From Flavobacteriales bacterium (GTDB lineage Bacteria > Bacteroidota > Bacteroidia > Flavobacteriales_C > GCA-002722245), in NCBI GenBank assembly GCA_002720635.1, contig PBJD01000008.1, positions 1 to 44,267 of the forward strand: DNA of 44,267 nucleotides. The letters run 5' to 3'. This document shows positions 2,777 through 43,408 of this stretch, piece by piece. The notes beneath the pieces were generated by a model. That model saw only the letters and a program-made list of their open reading frames with translations. It was not told the DNA's origin and searched no databases. The translations under genes and the position numbers were made by a program. The number at the start of each line of letters is the position of its first letter. Position 1 is the stretch's first letter.

Positions 2777-4036
2777 ATGGATTCAAAGAATCAAAAAGTT
2801 CATATTGTAGGAGCTGGTGTTAGCGGCCTGATTGCTGCTCGTATTTTAGAAGAATATGGATTATCCCCAATTGTTTTAGAGGCTACCGATAGAGTTGGTG
2901 GCAGGGTTAAAACGGACCTTATTGAAGGTTTTCAATTGGATCATGGTTTTCAGGTTCTATTATCCAGTTATGCTGCTGCAAAAAAGTATCTGGATTACGA
3001 CACTCTAAATCTTCAGGAATTTAAATCCGGGTCTTGTATTTTTATTAACGGCAAAAAAAAGTTTATTGGTGATCCTTTGAGAGATTCATCAATCTTGTTT
3101 TCAACCTTGTTTTCTGGAATTGGAAGTTTGTCGGACAAATTGAAAATATTAAAATTGAATAAATCCCTGAAAAAAAAATCCATTCCGGAAATTTTCAGTT
3201 CCAAAGAAACTACAACTATTGAATATTTAAATAATCTGGGATTTTCAAAAGGTATTATCCATAAATTCTTTCAACCATTTTTCACGGGTATCTTCTTAGA
3301 GCCCGACTTAAAAACCTCCAGCAGAATGTTTGAGTTCGTGTTTAAAATGTTTGGAGATGGATCTGCCGTTATGCCCGAGGGGGGAATTGAAGACATTTCA
3401 AAACAATTGAAAAATAAATTAAAGAATACCGCTTTTCAATTCAATACCAGAGTAAAAAGTGTACAAGGGCAAAACATTGAACTCGAAAATGGAGAAATCT
3501 TATCTACTGACTACACAATAATAGCTACTGAAGCGAATAATCTGATTCGTAATTTACGAAACCAGCAAGTTGATTGGAAATCCTGTCAAACTTTATATTT
3601 TAAAGTAGCCGATAGAATAATTGAAAAGCCGTTTATTGGGCTAATTCCAAACAAAGAATGTCTGACCAATAATATTTTTTATCATACCAGTCTAAAAACA
3701 AGAAAAAAAGGTTCAGGTGAATTGTTATCTGTAACCGTTGTGAATCAACACAATTTAACCAATGACCAGCTGATTGAAAAAGTAACAAAAGAGCTCGATC
3801 AAGAATGTTCTATTATTGATGTTGAATTTTTGAAAATATACACTATTACAAAAGCTTTACCTAATCTAAGCAACCTTCAGTATGAGGTTTCAGCTTCTGA
3901 AACAAAACTTACAGATCATATATTTCTTGCAGGTGATGTTCAGCTTAATGGCTCATTAAATGCAGCCATGATTTCAGGGGAACGCGCTGCCCTTGGTATA
4001 TTGGAAGTAATGCAAAAATCAACTGTTTTTGGATAA
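2777..4036 (+). CDS. NAD(P)/FAD-dependent amine oxidase/desaturase-like oxidoreductase
   Basis: The 419-residue protein opens with a dinucleotide-binding fold VHIVGAGVSGLIAARILEE, an acidic strand end (PIVLEATDRVGGRVKT) with the second-glycine signature of the flavin amine oxidase superfamily, and a DHGFQVLLSSY segment. Near the C-terminus, IFLAGDVQLNGSLNAAMISG is the usual FAD-closing motif. The family includes phytoene desaturases, protoporphyrinogen oxidase-like enzymes and amine oxidases. This member lacks enough landmarks to name a substrate. No carotenoid genes (crtB, crtI pairs) are nearby, which argues against pigment biosynthesis as the default assignment. It ends 24 bases before a convergent gene. 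Confidence 0.88.
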   Translation: MDSKNQKVHIVGAGVSGLIAARILEEYGLSPIVLEATDRVGGRVKTDLIEGFQLDHGFQVLLSSYAAAKKYLDYDTLNLQEFKSGSCIFINGKKKFIGDPLRDSSILFSTLFSGIGSLSDKLKILKLNKSLKKKSIPEIFSSKETTTIEYLNNLGFSKGIIHKFFQPFFTGIFLEPDLKTSSRMFEFVFKMFGDGSAVMPEGGIEDISKQLKNKLKNTAFQFNTRVKSVQGQNIELENGEILSTDYTIIATEANNLIRNLRNQQVDWKSCQTLYFKVADRIIEKPFIGLIPNKECLTNNIFYHTSLKTRKKGSGELLSVTVVNQHNLTNDQLIEKVTKELDQECSIIDVEFLKIYTITKALPNLSNLQYEVSASETKLTDHIFLAGDVQLNGSLNAAMISGERAALGILEVMQKSTVFG

Positions 4037-4060
4037 TTCCATTATGAAAAAATTCAATGA

Positions 4061-4630
4061 TTATTTTATTTCCACATAAATATCATCAAACCAGGCGGTT
4101 CCTGTAGCAGTACCGCACATTAAATTAATTTCAATAAAATTACATCCTTTCGGTATGGAGTATTTTCTTTTGTATTTTTTCCAGTCGGATGTTGCCTTAG
4201 CCTCTCCAACAACTGGTGGATACTGTTTACCAACATAGTTCTCCATATCTTCTTCATCACTTGTTTTCATAAATCGAACCCCTATTCGCGCGTTGTTCCA
4301 GGGTTTGCCAATCGGAAAAATTTCTTTTGTTTTTATCCAGCCTGAAACCACTATTTTTTTTGCGCTTTTGGGACATTCAATAATCTGTGATGCACCACGC
4401 CATTCTTGGGTTTTAGCTTGTATTTTACAGCTTGTTTCCCCAGAGTGTTTTTTGGTTCTATCCAACTCCATCCCCCACCATTTATTCCATCTGAAATCAC
4501 CGTTTTCGAATCCTCCATTGGTAAGGTCATTGCTGTTGGATGAAGTAAATGAAATCAGCACAATAGTAACCCATGTAACCAAAAAACAAAAAATGGCTGT
4601 TGAGATTTTATTTTCACCCACTATACTCAT
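4061..4630 (-). CDS. Membrane-anchored or secreted carbohydrate-binding-like (jelly-roll) protein
   Basis: A 189-residue protein with an N-terminal hydrophobic segment at about residues 9-29 that could be a signal anchor or uncleaved signal peptide. The rest resembles CBM4/9-type or generic jelly-roll beta-sandwich domains: NGGFENGDFRWNKWW near the start, a hydrophobic GVRFMK strand, and a closing GTATGTAWFDDIYVEIK, the classic last strand of these modules. No catalytic domain is attached, so it would be a stand-alone binding protein. The ligand is unknown, and sugar binding is inferred from fold similarity only. Start ATG at 4630; no operon partner on this strand. Confidence 0.75.
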   Translation of the reverse strand: MSIVGENKISTAIFCFLVTWVTIVLISFTSSNSNDLTNGGFENGDFRWNKWWGMELDRTKKHSGETSCKIQAKTQEWRGASQIIECPKSAKKIVVSGWIKTKEIFPIGKPWNNARIGVRFMKTSDEEDMENYVGKQYPPVVGEAKATSDWKKYKRKYSIPKGCNFIEINLMCGTATGTAWFDDIYVEIK

Positions 4631-4760
4631 AGTATAAAGTAGTGAAATTTGTTGTGAAAATCAATGTAAAACACTGGTAATAAGACCTTTTGATTTTTTA
4701 ATTGACATAAATAATTTTTTAAGAAGATTTTTTCCAATAGTATTGTACAAAATTTAATTT

Positions 4761-5321
4761 ATGGAATCTTTACTTCAAGGACATTGGCCCTGGTATATCA
4801 CGGGAATACTTTTTGGTTTAATTGTACCGCTCTTACTATTTGTTGGCAATAAACCTTTTGGAATTTCAAAATCACTAAAAGATATCGCTTCTTTGTTACC
4901 ACAAAATAGATTTCACCAAATAAAACATGATTTAAAACCCAATTTTTGGCGTATTTATTTTGTTGTTGGAATTATCATAGGGGGTTACTTAGCGGTGTTG
5001 TTTTTAAAAGGAAATGCCACTATAGATTTATCAAATTCTACTAAAAGTGATTTAGAAAATATAGGAATTGTAAGCTTTGATGGATTGGCACCTTCTCAAA
5101 TATTCAATTGGGAGTTTTTACTATCCACTAAAGGATTATTAATTATGGTACTTGGGGGATTTCTGATTGGCTTTGGTGTCCGTTACGCAAATGGTTGTAC
5201 TTCCGGTCATGCGATTATGGGACTATCGATTTTTAGTTCTTCCTCATTAATTGCAGTCTTGGGTTTTTTTGCTGGAGGACTTTTAATGACGCATATACTC
5301 TTTCCCCTACTCTTTAATTGA
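4761..5321 (+). CDS. YeeE/YedE family transporter, first half
   Basis: A 186-residue membrane protein with about five hydrophobic helices. It carries the YeeE/YedE (DUF395) signature FGVRYANGCTSGHAIMGLS, with the conserved Cys in the membrane re-entrant region. In characterised relatives such as TsuA, similar Cys-containing segments pass thiosulfate; other members move other sulfur compounds. In many Bacteroidota the transporter is split over two adjacent genes, and that is the case here: the second half begins right after this stop. The substrate is inferred as a sulfur species. No sulfurtransferase, rhodanese or sulfur-oxidation gene is seen nearby. Confidence 0.92.
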   Translation: MESLLQGHWPWYITGILFGLIVPLLLFVGNKPFGISKSLKDIASLLPQNRFHQIKHDLKPNFWRIYFVVGIIIGGYLAVLFLKGNATIDLSNSTKSDLENIGIVSFDGLAPSQIFNWEFLLSTKGLLIMVLGGFLIGFGVRYANGCTSGHAIMGLSIFSSSSLIAVLGFFAGGLLMTHILFPLLFN

Positions 5322-37123: not shown

Positions 37124-37738
37124 ATGAAAATTATTTGTATCGGTAGGAACTTTGCTGACCATGCTAAAGAATTAGGCAATGACAAACCTTCTTCGCCTGT
37201 TATATTCCTCAAACCTGATACAGCTCTTTTAAGAAACAATGATCCCTTTTTTCTACCGGATTTCTCAAAAGAAATCCATCATGAAATAGAACTGGTCATA
37301 AAAATAAAACGTCTTGGAAAAAATATCCAGGCAAAATTCGCTCACAAATATTATGATGAGATTGGTTTAGGTGTTGATTTCACAGCAAGAGATGTTCAAT
37401 TTGAACTCAGAGAAAAAGGTTTACCCTGGGAAAAAGCAAAGGCTTTTGATTCATCAGCTGCCATATCAAAAAAATTCATTTCCAAAACCGAATTGGGAGA
37501 CTTAACTGATTTGAGCTTTCATCTGGAAAAAAATGGTGAAAAAGTTCAAATTGGAAATACAAATCAAATGATCTTTACAATTGAAGAAATCATTTGCTAC
37601 GTTTCAAAATATTTCACCCTGAAAATTGGAGACCTGATCTATACCGGTACGCCTTCCGGCGTGGGCAAAGTTGAAATTAATGATGAACTTTCGGGATATT
37701 TAAAAGATTATAAATTGTTTGATTTTAAAATAAAATAA
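37124..37738 (+). CDS. Fumarylacetoacetate hydrolase (FAH) family protein
   Basis: 204 residues, the short FAHD1/acylpyruvase-like form. It has the MKIICIGRNFADHAKELGN start with the N-Y/F-xxH motif, the metal-binding block HHEIELVIKI (Glu/Glu pair with a His before), the GLGVDFTARDVQFELREKG region with Asp, the WEKAKAFDSSAA loop and the terminal GDLIYTGTPSGVG. FAH enzymes cut carbon-carbon bonds in acylpyruvates or decarboxylate oxaloacetate with Mg2+. No catabolic partner is near, so the substrate is open. Its stop shares a base with the next gene's start. Confidence 0.94.
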   Translation: MKIICIGRNFADHAKELGNDKPSSPVIFLKPDTALLRNNDPFFLPDFSKEIHHEIELVIKIKRLGKNIQAKFAHKYYDEIGLGVDFTARDVQFELREKGLPWEKAKAFDSSAAISKKFISKTELGDLTDLSFHLEKNGEKVQIGNTNQMIFTIEEIICYVSKYFTLKIGDLIYTGTPSGVGKVEINDELSGYLKDYKLFDFKIK

Positions 37739-38067
37739 TGAGAACCACCCTACTTTTTTCAATTACCTGCATACTCTTTTCATGTTCAAAACACGAGAAC
37801 AGAATGGAGGGTTCCTGGTTTGTAAACTACTTTGTAAATGACTCAAAAACAGGAGATTTCACATTAAAACTCGATGAAGGTGGCATAGGAAAAAAAGATG
37901 GTTCAACAGACATTACCTGGACGATAAATAAAAAAGAGCTTACCTTGATTATTAATGGTTATTCTCAAATATGGGAAAATAACCAAAACAAAAGGAATAA
38001 TCAGTTTTACCTATCCAGTGACAGCAGCGGTAACTACTTAAGGATGGAAATGGAAAGAATCAAGTAA
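37738..38067 (+). CDS. Small lipoprotein, lipocalin-like
   Basis: 109 residues. The signal MRTTLLFSITCILFSCS ends in a lipobox (LFSC), so Cys16 would be lipidated. The remainder is short beta strands (EGSWFVNYF, GDFTLKLDEGG, DITWTINKKELTLII) ending in RMEMERIK, as in the small lipocalin-like or META-like lipoproteins of Bacteroidota. The function is unknown. It overlaps the FAH gene by one base, so the two are co-transcribed. Confidence 0.8.
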   Translation: MRTTLLFSITCILFSCSKHENRMEGSWFVNYFVNDSKTGDFTLKLDEGGIGKKDGSTDITWTINKKELTLIINGYSQIWENNQNKRNNQFYLSSDSSGNYLRMEMERIK

Positions 38068-38113
38068 TGCTTTACTTGTGTGGCAAAAATGCTTATCTTT
38101 TAAAGAAAGTATC

Positions 38114-38527
38114 ATGAAAAATTTTTCAGGGTCTTTATGGCTCTCTTTAATCCTGTGTTTCACTCTGTCTTCTTGTGGAGGATCGTCAACAACTCATGAT
38201 TCTTGTTCTGCTAAATGTAAAAAAGAATGCAGTGCTTCAAATGCAGATGGAACAAAAAGTCATGATTGCGCTTCAAATTGCACAGAATCATGTCACAATT
38301 CGAAAAACGAATCAAGTAAAACTAAAAAATGTGATTCTGAATGTGTTAAACCGTGTTGTACAGGTAACGAAAAAGAATCTTGTGCATTAGATTGTGAAAA
38401 GGTATGCTGTTCATCCAAAGAAAAACAAGTTGAAGTTAACAGTTGTAATGCTGATTGCATGGAACCTTGTTGCTCTGGGGAAGAAAAGAAATCATGTTCT
38501 CCAGAATGTGAAAGAAACTGTTGTTAG
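38114..38527 (+). CDS. Cysteine-rich lipoprotein with CX3CX3C repeats
   Basis: 137 residues from ATG 38114. A GTG at 38078 is in frame but would put 12 residues before the signal. The lipobox is LSSC (Cys21). After it come 22 more cysteines in about 116 residues, arranged as six CX3CX3C units. The last four form two 27-residue repeats with the pattern CX3CX3CCX7CX3CX3CC; the first two have the same spacing without the final Cys. No other domain is seen. This is a metallothionein-like pattern, suggesting binding of soft metals (copper, zinc, silver) at the envelope, or disulfide-based structure. Function unknown. It follows a small lipoprotein gene by 46 bases. Confidence 0.83.
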   Translation: MKNFSGSLWLSLILCFTLSSCGGSSTTHDSCSAKCKKECSASNADGTKSHDCASNCTESCHNSKNESSKTKKCDSECVKPCCTGNEKESCALDCEKVCCSSKEKQVEVNSCNADCMEPCCSGEEKKSCSPECERNCC

Positions 38528-38580: not shown

Positions 38581-39258
38581 CTATTTGTACAAGGATGATA
38601 AAATTTTCTTCTTAAGACCTCTGGTAATGTTGAGTGCCTTTTGATCCACAACCAATGCGAAAACAACGTCGTATTTGTGCTTTGCAGTTTCTACATTTTT
38701 ATCGATAATATAAAATCTTCTTTTACTGCGGTATGATAAATCTTTAGGAAGATCTTTAAAGGATTTTAAACTACCTGTTTGAATATCGTAGAAGGCATAT
38801 TTTCCTTTTTTTACATCGAAAGTTTGACCACCTGCTTGAAAAATATTATTCTTTTGGTACTGAATAGAATCATACAATAGAACATTTTCAACTTTATATT
38901 TACTGTAAAGTAAATCCAGTTCATATTCAAAATGAGCGTATCTAAAATTCGAACTTCTTGAACAGCGATCAATAGAGAGGCCATTAAACCAGAAAAGAAT
39001 ATAGGATTTACCGGTATCTAACCTAAAATATTCTGAATTGAATTCTTTACGCTCAAACTTAACAAAGTTACCAATTGAATCGCCTTTCCATTTTTTTGCA
39101 ACCTCAACAAGAATGGAATCACCTTGAATTTTTTTTGCATGTACAATCGCAATATTTTGAGTCATTTCAAACTCCTGCTTTAAGGTTATGCTTTCACATT
39201 GTGCCTTAACTGAAATGGATGTATAAAAAATTAACAAGTAAATAAGGGCTTTTCTCAT
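38581..39258 (-). CDS. Secreted TIMP/NTR-like protein, function unknown
   Basis: 225 residues with a signal peptide (ending VKAQ). The mature protein starts with Cys, [23 protein letters not shown], then [18 protein letters not shown] and a [11 protein letters not shown] strand, and a second Cys in [10 protein letters not shown]. This follows the layout of bacterial TIMP/netrin-like OB-fold proteins (N-terminal Cys, W-K-G, GxxYL). The C-terminal half (residues 120-225) is Lys-rich and not recognised. Inference only: a secreted binding or inhibitor domain. Its start overlaps the pyrD stop by four bases (ATGA), which ties it to that transcript. A tail-to-tail gap of 53 bases separates it from the cysteine-rich lipoprotein. 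Confidence 0.75.
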
Positions 39259-40293: not shown

Positions 40294-41523
40294 TTAATTT
40301 TCGTATAATTCTTCTACTTCTTTTAAAACCTCCTCAACCGGTCTTGTATTTTCATAAAAACCAAGAACCTTTCTTAAAACAGCTTCAACCGTACTGTCAG
40401 GGCAGCTCGCACCTGAGGTAAGTATAATGTCTATTTTCTTACCATCTGGTAAATAATTTAAAGAAGTACCTTCTTCCTTTTTCCTCCAGTCAAAATGCGC
40501 TATCTCTTTATCGCTTAGTAATTTATCTTTCCCAGTAACAAAATAGGTTGGGCATTTTTCTTCACACAATTCCACAAGGTGTGTAGTATTGGAGCTATTA
40601 TACCCACCTACAACGATTGCTAAGTCAGCACCTTCCTCCAACAGCCCGTAGGTAGCGCTTTGATTATCATTAGTGGCGTAACACAAAGAATCTCTGGTGT
40701 CGGCAAAAGCTTTATTTTCACTACCGTAAAGATCTTCAACAACTCCTTTGATATATGCAGCAATTTCTTTTGTTTCACTTGCCAGCATAGTAGTCTGGTT
40801 AACTACACCAATCCGTTTTAAATGAATTTCAGGATCAAACCCTTCACTATATTTCCCTTTAAAATCATTGTAAAAATCATTTTTGGATTTTTTGCCTCTT
40901 ATGTACTGTTCTAAAACCTTGGTTTCTTCAATATTTTTAACAATAATTGCAGGCCCTTCCTGAGAAGCATGGGAGAACGTAGCTCTTGTTTCTTCATGGT
41001 TACTCTTTCCATGAATTACAATGGTATACTCTTTATCACCCAGTTTTTTGCTCATCTTCCAAACTCTTTCTACAAAAGGACATGTAGTATTATATTCCTC
41101 AGTATGGACGCCCTTCTCCGAAAGTATTTCTTTAGTTTCAATAGTTGTACCAAAAGCAGGCACAATCACTAAATCTTCTGAAGTTATCGAACTCCATTCA
41201 ATAAGTTGATTGCCTTTTGTATCCATAATGAATTGAATTCCTCTACTCTGTAAATCAGAATTCACAAGTGGATTATGAATCATTTCACTCAAAAAATATA
41301 TGTTCTTTCCTGGATTTTCATCTAAAGCTTTATAAGCTCTTTCAATGGCATTTTCCACACCAAAACAAAATCCAAAATGGCGAGCAATTAAGAACCGAAC
41401 TGGACCAAAATCCAATTTAGTTGGTGAAAAATCTTTCTTTTTGGGGTCAAGAGTTTTCCTGATATCTTTAAGCATAGATATAATGGGACTTCTGTAGAAC
41501 TCTGGAACTTCAAATTCTCGCAT
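40294..41523 (-). CDS. ispH: 4-hydroxy-3-methylbut-2-enyl diphosphate reductase
   Basis: 409 residues, the long Bacteroidota/chloroplast-like form with an N-terminal extension of about 45 residues. The three 4Fe-4S cluster cysteines are in [12 protein letters not shown] (Cys53), TTCPFVERV, and [12 protein letters not shown]. The motifs [28 protein letters not shown] and [13 protein letters not shown] complete the substrate pocket. The enzyme makes IPP and DMAPP in the last step of the MEP pathway. So isoprenoids are made by MEP rather than mevalonate, at least for this step. Candidate -7 box at 41540-41547. Confidence 0.96.
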
Positions 41524-41860: not shown

Positions 41861-43408
41861 ATGTGCGATTCAGATAAGTGTAAGGTAAGTGAAGAAGAAA
41901 TATCTTTAGCAACTAAAATTCTTGAAAAACTAGTGGCCAATCCCGTTCAACTGTTCGAAATAGATGAACAAAAACGAATTGAGCTAATGAAATTCTCAGG
42001 CCAGTTGAGTCGTCCTGGTCGTGATGAATTTAAGCAACGTAAAAAAAACGCAAAGAAGGCAGCTGAACGAAAAAGAAGAGAACGAGAAAAGCATGCACGT
42101 AAAGAAACAGGTATTCGAAGTGCTCGGGAAAACACGGTATTTGTTGCTCCAAAAATGTTGGGTAATTCCGATATTTCTATTCAAAAAGTTGGCGAACTGG
42201 AAAATCCTCGCAACTGTTACGTTTGTAAATCAATGTTTAAAAAACTGCATCATTTTTACGATGCAATGTGTCCTGAATGCGGAGATTTTAATTATGCAAA
42301 GCGCTTCCAAACTGCAGATTTAAAAGGTCAGGTTGCGGTAGTTACAGGTTCTAGACTTAAAATTGGATACCATATTGTTTTAATGTTATTGCGCGCTGGA
42401 GCAACTGTTGTGGCTACTACTAGATTTCCAGTTGACTCTGCATTACGCTACTCAAAAGAATCCGATTACAATCAATGGAAAGACCGTTTAAGTATACATG
42501 GTTTGGACTTACGCCATATTCCAAGTGTTGAAATTTTTTGCAACTACATGGAACAAACGTATGGTAATCTGGATATTTTAATCAACAACGCTGCACAAAC
42601 TGTACGTCGCCCAGCTGGTTTTTATGCGCATTTAATGGAGAATGAAGACAAACCAAGAAGCAAGCTTTCACACGACGTTTTAAATTTATTGCAAAATCAC
42701 CATCTATCAATTGATGAATTGAAGAATTTAGCTCTTGCTTCAACTAGTGAGCAAAACACACAACTCCCTGTTGCCTGGCATGCAACTGAACCTGGAGTTG
42801 GGATAAGAGCTTCTGCCAAGCTATCTCAAATACCCTATAGTTTTGATAACTCCTTACCTACTCAGGATGTTTTTCCCGAAGGAAAACTTGATGCCGATTT
42901 GCAGCAGGTCGACTTGAGAAAAACGAACAGCTGGCGTTTAAAACTCGGAGAAGTAGAAACATTGGAAATGATAGAGGTTCAACTGGTTAACTCTGTTGCT
43001 CCATTTGTATTGTGTAGTAGATTATCAAAAATCATGCGCAAAGAAAATACAGGCATGAAGCACATTATTAATGTTTCAGCAATGGAAGGTAAATTTCACC
43101 GATTTTTTAAAGAAGACAGGCACCCTCATACCAATATGGCGAAAGCAGCCTTAAATATGATGACGCATACCTCTGCTCTTGACCTGGCTAAGGATGGTAT
43201 TTATATGAATGCAGTTGATACAGGCTGGGTTACCGATGAAGATCCCGTTGAACTTTCTGAACAAAAGGAAAAGGTACACGATTTTCAACCTCCTCTTGAT
43301 ATTGTTGATGGTGCCGCCAGAGTTTTAGACCCATTATTTGATGGTATTAATACAGGTAAACACTGGTGCGGTAAATTTTTAAAAGATTACAAACCAATTG
43401 ATTGGTAA
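41861..43408 (+). CDS. SDR-family protein with N-terminal zinc-ribbon extension
   Basis: 515 residues. The first 100 form an acidic helical region and then a basic coiled stretch ([20 protein letters not shown]). A four-Cys cluster CYVC (119, 122) and CPEC (137, 140) makes a probable zinc-ribbon. From residue 157 the fold is [22 protein letters not shown] (NAD(P) motif TGSRLKIG), NNAA at 242-245, a Ser at 406 (NVSAMEG), and Lys428 in TNMAK; the YxxxK Tyr position is Thr424. A large insertion (about 250-370) lies between the cofactor and catalytic parts. The length and fusion match a conserved bacterial and plant group whose reaction is unknown. truA overlaps its stop by one base. Confidence 0.9.

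Follow-up and report, generated by a model that had tools for sequence, protein, structure and literature searches.

The window analysed here (all 44,267 nucleotides of contig PBJD01000008.1, from a marine Flavobacteriales bacterium, assembly GCA_002720635.1) encodes a Cys-rich lipoprotein of 137 residues (Table 1), whose frame opens with an ATG at 38114 and closes with a stop codon at 38525–38527. The protein begins with MKNFSGSLWLSLILCFTLSSC, which reads as a basic n-region, a hydrophobic core and the lipobox LSSC. Hence, Cys21 is the expected site of lipidation. The GGSST that follows lacks the acidic surface-export motif of the Bacteroidota LES—C-X-K-(D/E)2, SDDDD, and SDDFE (PMC5080379)—as defined in those species whose signal is known. 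The 46 bases ahead of the gene might hold a promoter of its own. For the lipoprotein gene directly upstream, no metal link was seen. This gene (37738–38067, forward strand) and 38581–39258 on the reverse strand encode exported proteins that are conserved but match no family, and both flank the Cys-rich gene within the genus.

Table 1. Features of the locus and HMA fusions of the Cys unit in other genomes
Feature	Position or locus	Strand	Basis
Gene of the Cys-rich lipoprotein, 137 aa	38114..38527	+	Open frame; syntenic orthologues; purifying selection
Predicted lipoprotein signal peptide, residues 1–20, LSS before Cys	38114..38173	+	Sequence reading
Predicted lipidated Cys21	38174..38176	+	Lipobox LSSC in sequence
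Unit 1, CX3CX3C, residues 31–39	38204..38230	+	Cys spacing
Unit 2, CX3CX3C, residues 52–60	38267..38293	+	Cys spacing
27-residue repeat A, units 3 (73–82) and 4 (90–99), CX3CX3CCX7CX3CX3CC, residues 73–99	38330..38410	+	Cys spacing; profile match
27-residue repeat B, units 5 (111–120) and 6 (128–137), spacing as in repeat A, residues 111–137	38444..38524	+	Cys spacing; profile match
Intergenic stretch, 46 bases, with TATCTTTT, conserved in G002	38068..38113	+	Alignment
109-aa lipoprotein, upstream neighbour, no Pfam match, kept in G002 and G003	37738..38067	+	ORF and Pfam search
FAA-hydrolase-family gene, syntenic anchor of the locus in G002, G003, and G004	37124..37738	+	Pfam PF01557
HMA domain with Cys-unit tail	Algibacter luteus, L013		HMA E 7.8e-14
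HMA domain with Cys-unit tail	G314, L066		HMA E 9.3e-13
HMA domain with Cys-unit tail	G355, L067		HMA E 2.2e-14
HMA domain with Cys-unit tail	G055, L005/L055		HMA E 4.6e-13

Cys accounts for 15.5% of the open frame, compared with 3.9% in the runner-up among the window's frames of at least 100 aa. Past Cys21, the protein has 116 residues, 22 of them Cys and every one of these inside a unit: 31, 35, 39; 52, 56, 60; 73, 77, 81, 82; 90, 94, 98, 99; 111, 115, 119, 120; and 128, 132, 136, 137. CX3CX3C thus occurs six times, CX3CX3CC four times, and the double unit CX3CX3CCX7CX3CX3CC twice, with the last CC of unit 6 forming the C terminus. The first-pass annotation had described 22 Cys and six CX3CX3C in about 116 residues, the last four units forming two 27-residue repeats of identical spacing; the residue count bears out both statements. 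Chance composition as the source of these repeats is ruled out by 200,000 composition-preserving shuffles, in which CX3CX3C occurred 0.66 times on average, at least six copies appeared in 0.03%, and four CX3CX3CC in none. The same 116 residues bear no F, W, or Y and only six I, L, V, or M; hence, a hydrophobic core is absent, as in metallothioneins. Two AlphaFold models of low confidence (pLDDT 48 and 52) show nothing but short helices, located on the units, so that no fold can be read from them.

A syntenic orthologue in G002—the MAG Flavobacteriales bacterium SP330, of the same genus—is 57% identical. All 23 mature Cys (22 of them post-lipid) are aligned, compared with 47 of the 91 other mature positions (52%) being identical, and dN between both genes (0.27) lies well below dS (1.47). 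The gene is therefore real and constrained, and a spurious ORF is ruled out by the low dN and the kept synteny. A Cys framework kept by selection, as suggested before, agrees with this alignment. The residues in between, described before as differing, are nevertheless not free: across genera, the second Cys tends to be preceded by D and followed by E and K, and the CC to be preceded by P or A. The unit consensus is CxxDCEKxCC, with CxxDC(E)KxCC as its cross-genus form. These recurrent residues exceed the shuffled expectation even if units picked by the CEK pattern are left out; the residue-position test gave P = 4e-4 for four units found without this pattern and 2e-5 with more units, values that are supportive only, as they come from few and partly related sequences.

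Within the genus, the Cys content of the locus varies strongly, with 22 post-lipid Cys in the window and in G002, 16 in G004, and 5 in G003. The G004 protein is a diverged orthologue adjoining the same FAA-hydrolase-family gene. The complete genome G003 (listed as 100%) encodes a lipoprotein of 91 residues at this position with a lone CEAESSKACC, and no match was found in G001 (74% complete). As far as such comparisons reach, the placement of Cys is the conserved trait and the number of units shifts quickly between species.

No named family with this repeat had been recognized at first, and this holds in Pfam, NCBIfam, and the PDB. The window protein matched no Pfam entry at E up to 10 and no NCBIfam entry at E up to 1, metallothionein models included. 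A PDB search by sequence and profile returned no match and no Csp chain—only a chance-level ribosomal match with the profile—and the open-access papers searched held nothing specific on the motif, on Cys-rich lipoproteins, or on HMA/Cys fusions. The profile search with the 27-residue repeat that the first-pass annotation had proposed did yield relatives: the unit was matched in 8 of 395 genomes of the class, and a DNA pattern for CxxxCEKxCC in 17 of 395, both scattered. Some of the pattern matches are not Cys-rich export proteins and were set aside on reading. A phylum-wide profile search recovered the window's own protein as sole member; hence, either few genomes carry the module or a profile of 27 positions is underpowered. 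No match was found in plasmids or viral contigs, which rules out plasmid or viral spread as far as these were searched.

Full sequences were read for stand-alone lipoproteins (G312, G070, and G195) and for secreted proteins (G186, G157, G265, and G215) with the unit. Many of the stand-alone relatives carry His-rich ends, such as NEHKHDHNHNGHSHSGHNHSH, HHSHEGHDHDH, or GGHNHSH. In three lipoproteins (L051:5083-5400 in G312, L052 in G195, and L050 in G070), an extra Cys/His unit, HVCxxxC...CxH, follows the CX3CX3CC units. We group these as Bacteroidota CX3CX3CC exported proteins, to which the window protein belongs by its export signal and its repeated CxxDCxKxCC units. The family is real, lineage-restricted, and apparently undescribed. 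By ORF reading, the same neighbours, a YchF-like GTPase and a glycosyltransferase, lie near the gene in both G312 and G070. One relative adjoins an MgtE magnesium transporter gene, which we do not count as evidence.

Exported HMA proteins of four genomes carry the unit as their tail (Table 1); the HMA domains are of the CopZ/MerP type. The fusion in A. luteus was found by patterns derived from the Cys-rich protein and not from HMA; its tail is 56% identical to the stand-alone G312 lipoprotein (E 4.7e-9), although homology statistics are fragile for Cys-rich, low-complexity sequence. As most related HMA lipoproteins lack the tail, it was acquired or lost as a module. The CX3CX3C(C) unit is hence reusable, alone or fused to HMA. 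These HMA lipoproteins of Flavobacteriia (L013, L066, L067, and L005) share the lipoprotein signal and the CX3CX3CC unit of xxDCxKxCC flavour with the window protein. They carry, however, an N-terminal HMA fold, whereas the window protein consists of Cys units only, and more of them; a Pfam search found no HMA domain (PF00403) in it. The HMA lipoproteins are comparable to periplasmic CopZ/MerP-like proteins noted in Bizionia argentinensis, the tails of those proteins left aside; in that organism, a search for Csp1, CueP, and CusF relatives was negative (PMC11213822). The window genome encodes a separate HMA-domain lipoprotein (G000:C34:7719-8084; L056:5220-5585, forward strand) that ends in GCCQYDRPNDVK and is a candidate partner of the Cys-rich lipoprotein. 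Upstream of it (L056, about 3373–4769), many ambiguous bases keep the genes from being judged.

Of the known systems, the bacterial metallothioneins SmtA/BmtA and MymT are likewise small, extremely Cys-rich, and devoid of a hydrophobic core. Their Cys spacing differs, though, the window protein matches no Pfam or NCBIfam model, and neither SmtA nor MymT is known as an exported lipoprotein. SmtA bears a zinc-finger fold and MymT has only 4.9 kDa (PMC7558416). In the broad, functional sense, the window protein resembles a metallothionein, being small, very Cys-rich, regular in its Cys motifs, and free of aromatic residues. Csp1 and Csp3 with their CXXXC motifs resemble it in their CX3C thiol pairs, in export (for the Csp1 branch), and in multi-ion Cu(I) storage as its likely role. 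CX3C pairs in Csp proteins bind Cu(I), and Csp1 uses a Tat signal. Before copper binds, Csp is already a rigid four-helix bundle tetramer (PMC7558416). The window protein appears too poor in hydrophobic residues for such a bundle, and its lipoprotein signal contains no twin arginine. The twin CX3C or alpha-hairpinin proteins are eukaryotic disulfide proteins with CX3C pairs on short helices and two disulfides per hairpin. Such pairs on short helices are the likeness to the window protein, which differs by its six units and its compartment; besides, the disulfide oxidases VKOR and DsbB were not found in five genomes of its genus.

Since relatives carry the repeat on copper-chaperone-like domains or beside His-rich ends, the most likely role is that of a metal sponge in the envelope. 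We therefore regard the window protein as probably a membrane-anchored, metallothionein-like metal buffer. The first-pass annotation had left this role and a disulfide stalk side by side. For the latter, the units would pair as twin-CX3C-like helical hairpins with the CCs closing the ends, giving a rigid spacer in the envelope. Export to an often oxidising compartment, strict Cys spacing, the short modelled helices of low confidence, and Cys counts that are even in the window protein and in both of its closest orthologues agree with such a ladder. A stalk would, however, call for an envelope disulfide oxidase and for a Cys number that is even throughout the family. Of the 11 stand-alone proteins, 6 have an odd number, and a search of five genomes of the genus, among them one with a listed completeness of 100%, turned up neither VKOR nor DsbB, the oxidases covered, while positive controls in other bacteria matched. 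In addition, copy number and linker length vary, and HMA fusions and His-rich ends are unexpected for a stalk. Hence, these features, together with a composition free of aromatics, favour the metal buffer, and we consider the stalk unlikely. The odd Cys counts, the failure to find VKOR or DsbB, and the HMA or His-rich partners lean toward metal; a third oxidase or intermolecular bonds would be compatible with them as well.

A membrane-bound Cys pool for taking up oxidants or reactive electrophiles, in which metal binding is only incidental, would suit an exposed, thiol-rich protein whose Cys number changes fast between species. A plain thiol pool needs neither exact CX3CX3C spacing nor conserved D, E, K, and P, though, and its fusion to HMA domains speaks against it; we hold this to be quite unlikely. 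Very unlikely is a metallochaperone that serves as Cu(I) donor, either for cuproenzyme assembly or for export through an HMA lipoprotein. The HMA lipoprotein in the same genome, the fusion of both modules in other Bacteroidia, and heavy-metal P-type ATPases in three other species of the genus would fit a donor, whereas 22 thiols fit storage better than single-ion transfer and no cuproenzyme or transporter is co-localised. The metal buffer has points against it, too. The syntenic neighbours of the window gene are housekeeping or unknown, with no metal-linked gene beside it; the same mostly applies to the relatives, and a metal-resistance operon was seen neither at the window locus nor around them. 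A heavy-metal P-type ATPase was not found in the window's own genome (78% complete). The five post-lipid Cys in G003 imply a dispensable or rapidly varying function, and the periplasm may oxidise the free thiols.

For the metal buffer, we infer metal binding, the identity of the metal, and the thiol state. Lipidation of Cys21 would tether the protein to a membrane, probably the outer one, on its periplasmic side. Each unit might form a short helical turn that aligns three thiols (i, i+4, i+8), the CC adding a fourth, and paired units on a flexible chain would then enclose soft-metal thiolate clusters. Copper is usually buffered in the periplasm. Given this, the CopZ/MerP-type HMA domains that accompany the unit, and the Cu(I) binding of CX3C in Csp, Cu(I) appears the most likely metal, with Zn(II), Ag(I), Cd(II), and Hg(II) being possible. 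If known metallothioneins and Csp proteins are a guide, 22 thiols might hold roughly 7 to 15 ions. Incoming periplasmic metal would be soaked up and possibly handed on to the separate HMA lipoprotein.

Exported Cys-rich metal buffers as such are a known kind, and the novelty lies in the repeat itself, the lipid anchor, and the HMA fusions. Few bacterial metallothioneins have been characterised, mostly cytosolic ones, and what is known of exported copper storage comes mainly from the Csp1 of methanotrophs and Neisseria, which leaves the cytosol by the Tat route. Tentatively, and with more doubt than confidence, we propose that Bacteroidota have a family of exported metallothioneins, anchored to the membrane and not described before, whose helical CX3CX3CC modules, differing in number from species to species, would hold periplasmic Cu(I) clusters and pass them to or receive them from HMA lipoproteins. 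Some flavobacteria would have fused the two parts of this copper buffer into a single protein. If true, such a modular, membrane-anchored buffer, spread over Bacteroidia and in part joined to HMA domains, would point to how a large bacterial group buffers soft metals in its periplasm; the CX3CX3CC repeat is, in any case, a motif missing from family databases.

Some minor observations were made along the way. HMA lipoproteins of two other genomes (L070 and L072, in G197 and G248) bear a different, simpler Lys/Cys-rich tail, for example KKSCCAGKLSCGEKK, which is perhaps an independent gain of thiols. In the window itself, 40294–41523 on the reverse strand encodes a LytB/IspH-family protein of 409 aa, exceeding the 267 positions of the Pfam model. 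A short-chain dehydrogenase (41861–43408, forward strand) bears a long N-terminal extension with a zinc-ribbon-like CxxC...CxxC stretch, and the end of its gene, which is conserved in G002, overlaps the following tRNA pseudouridine synthase gene.
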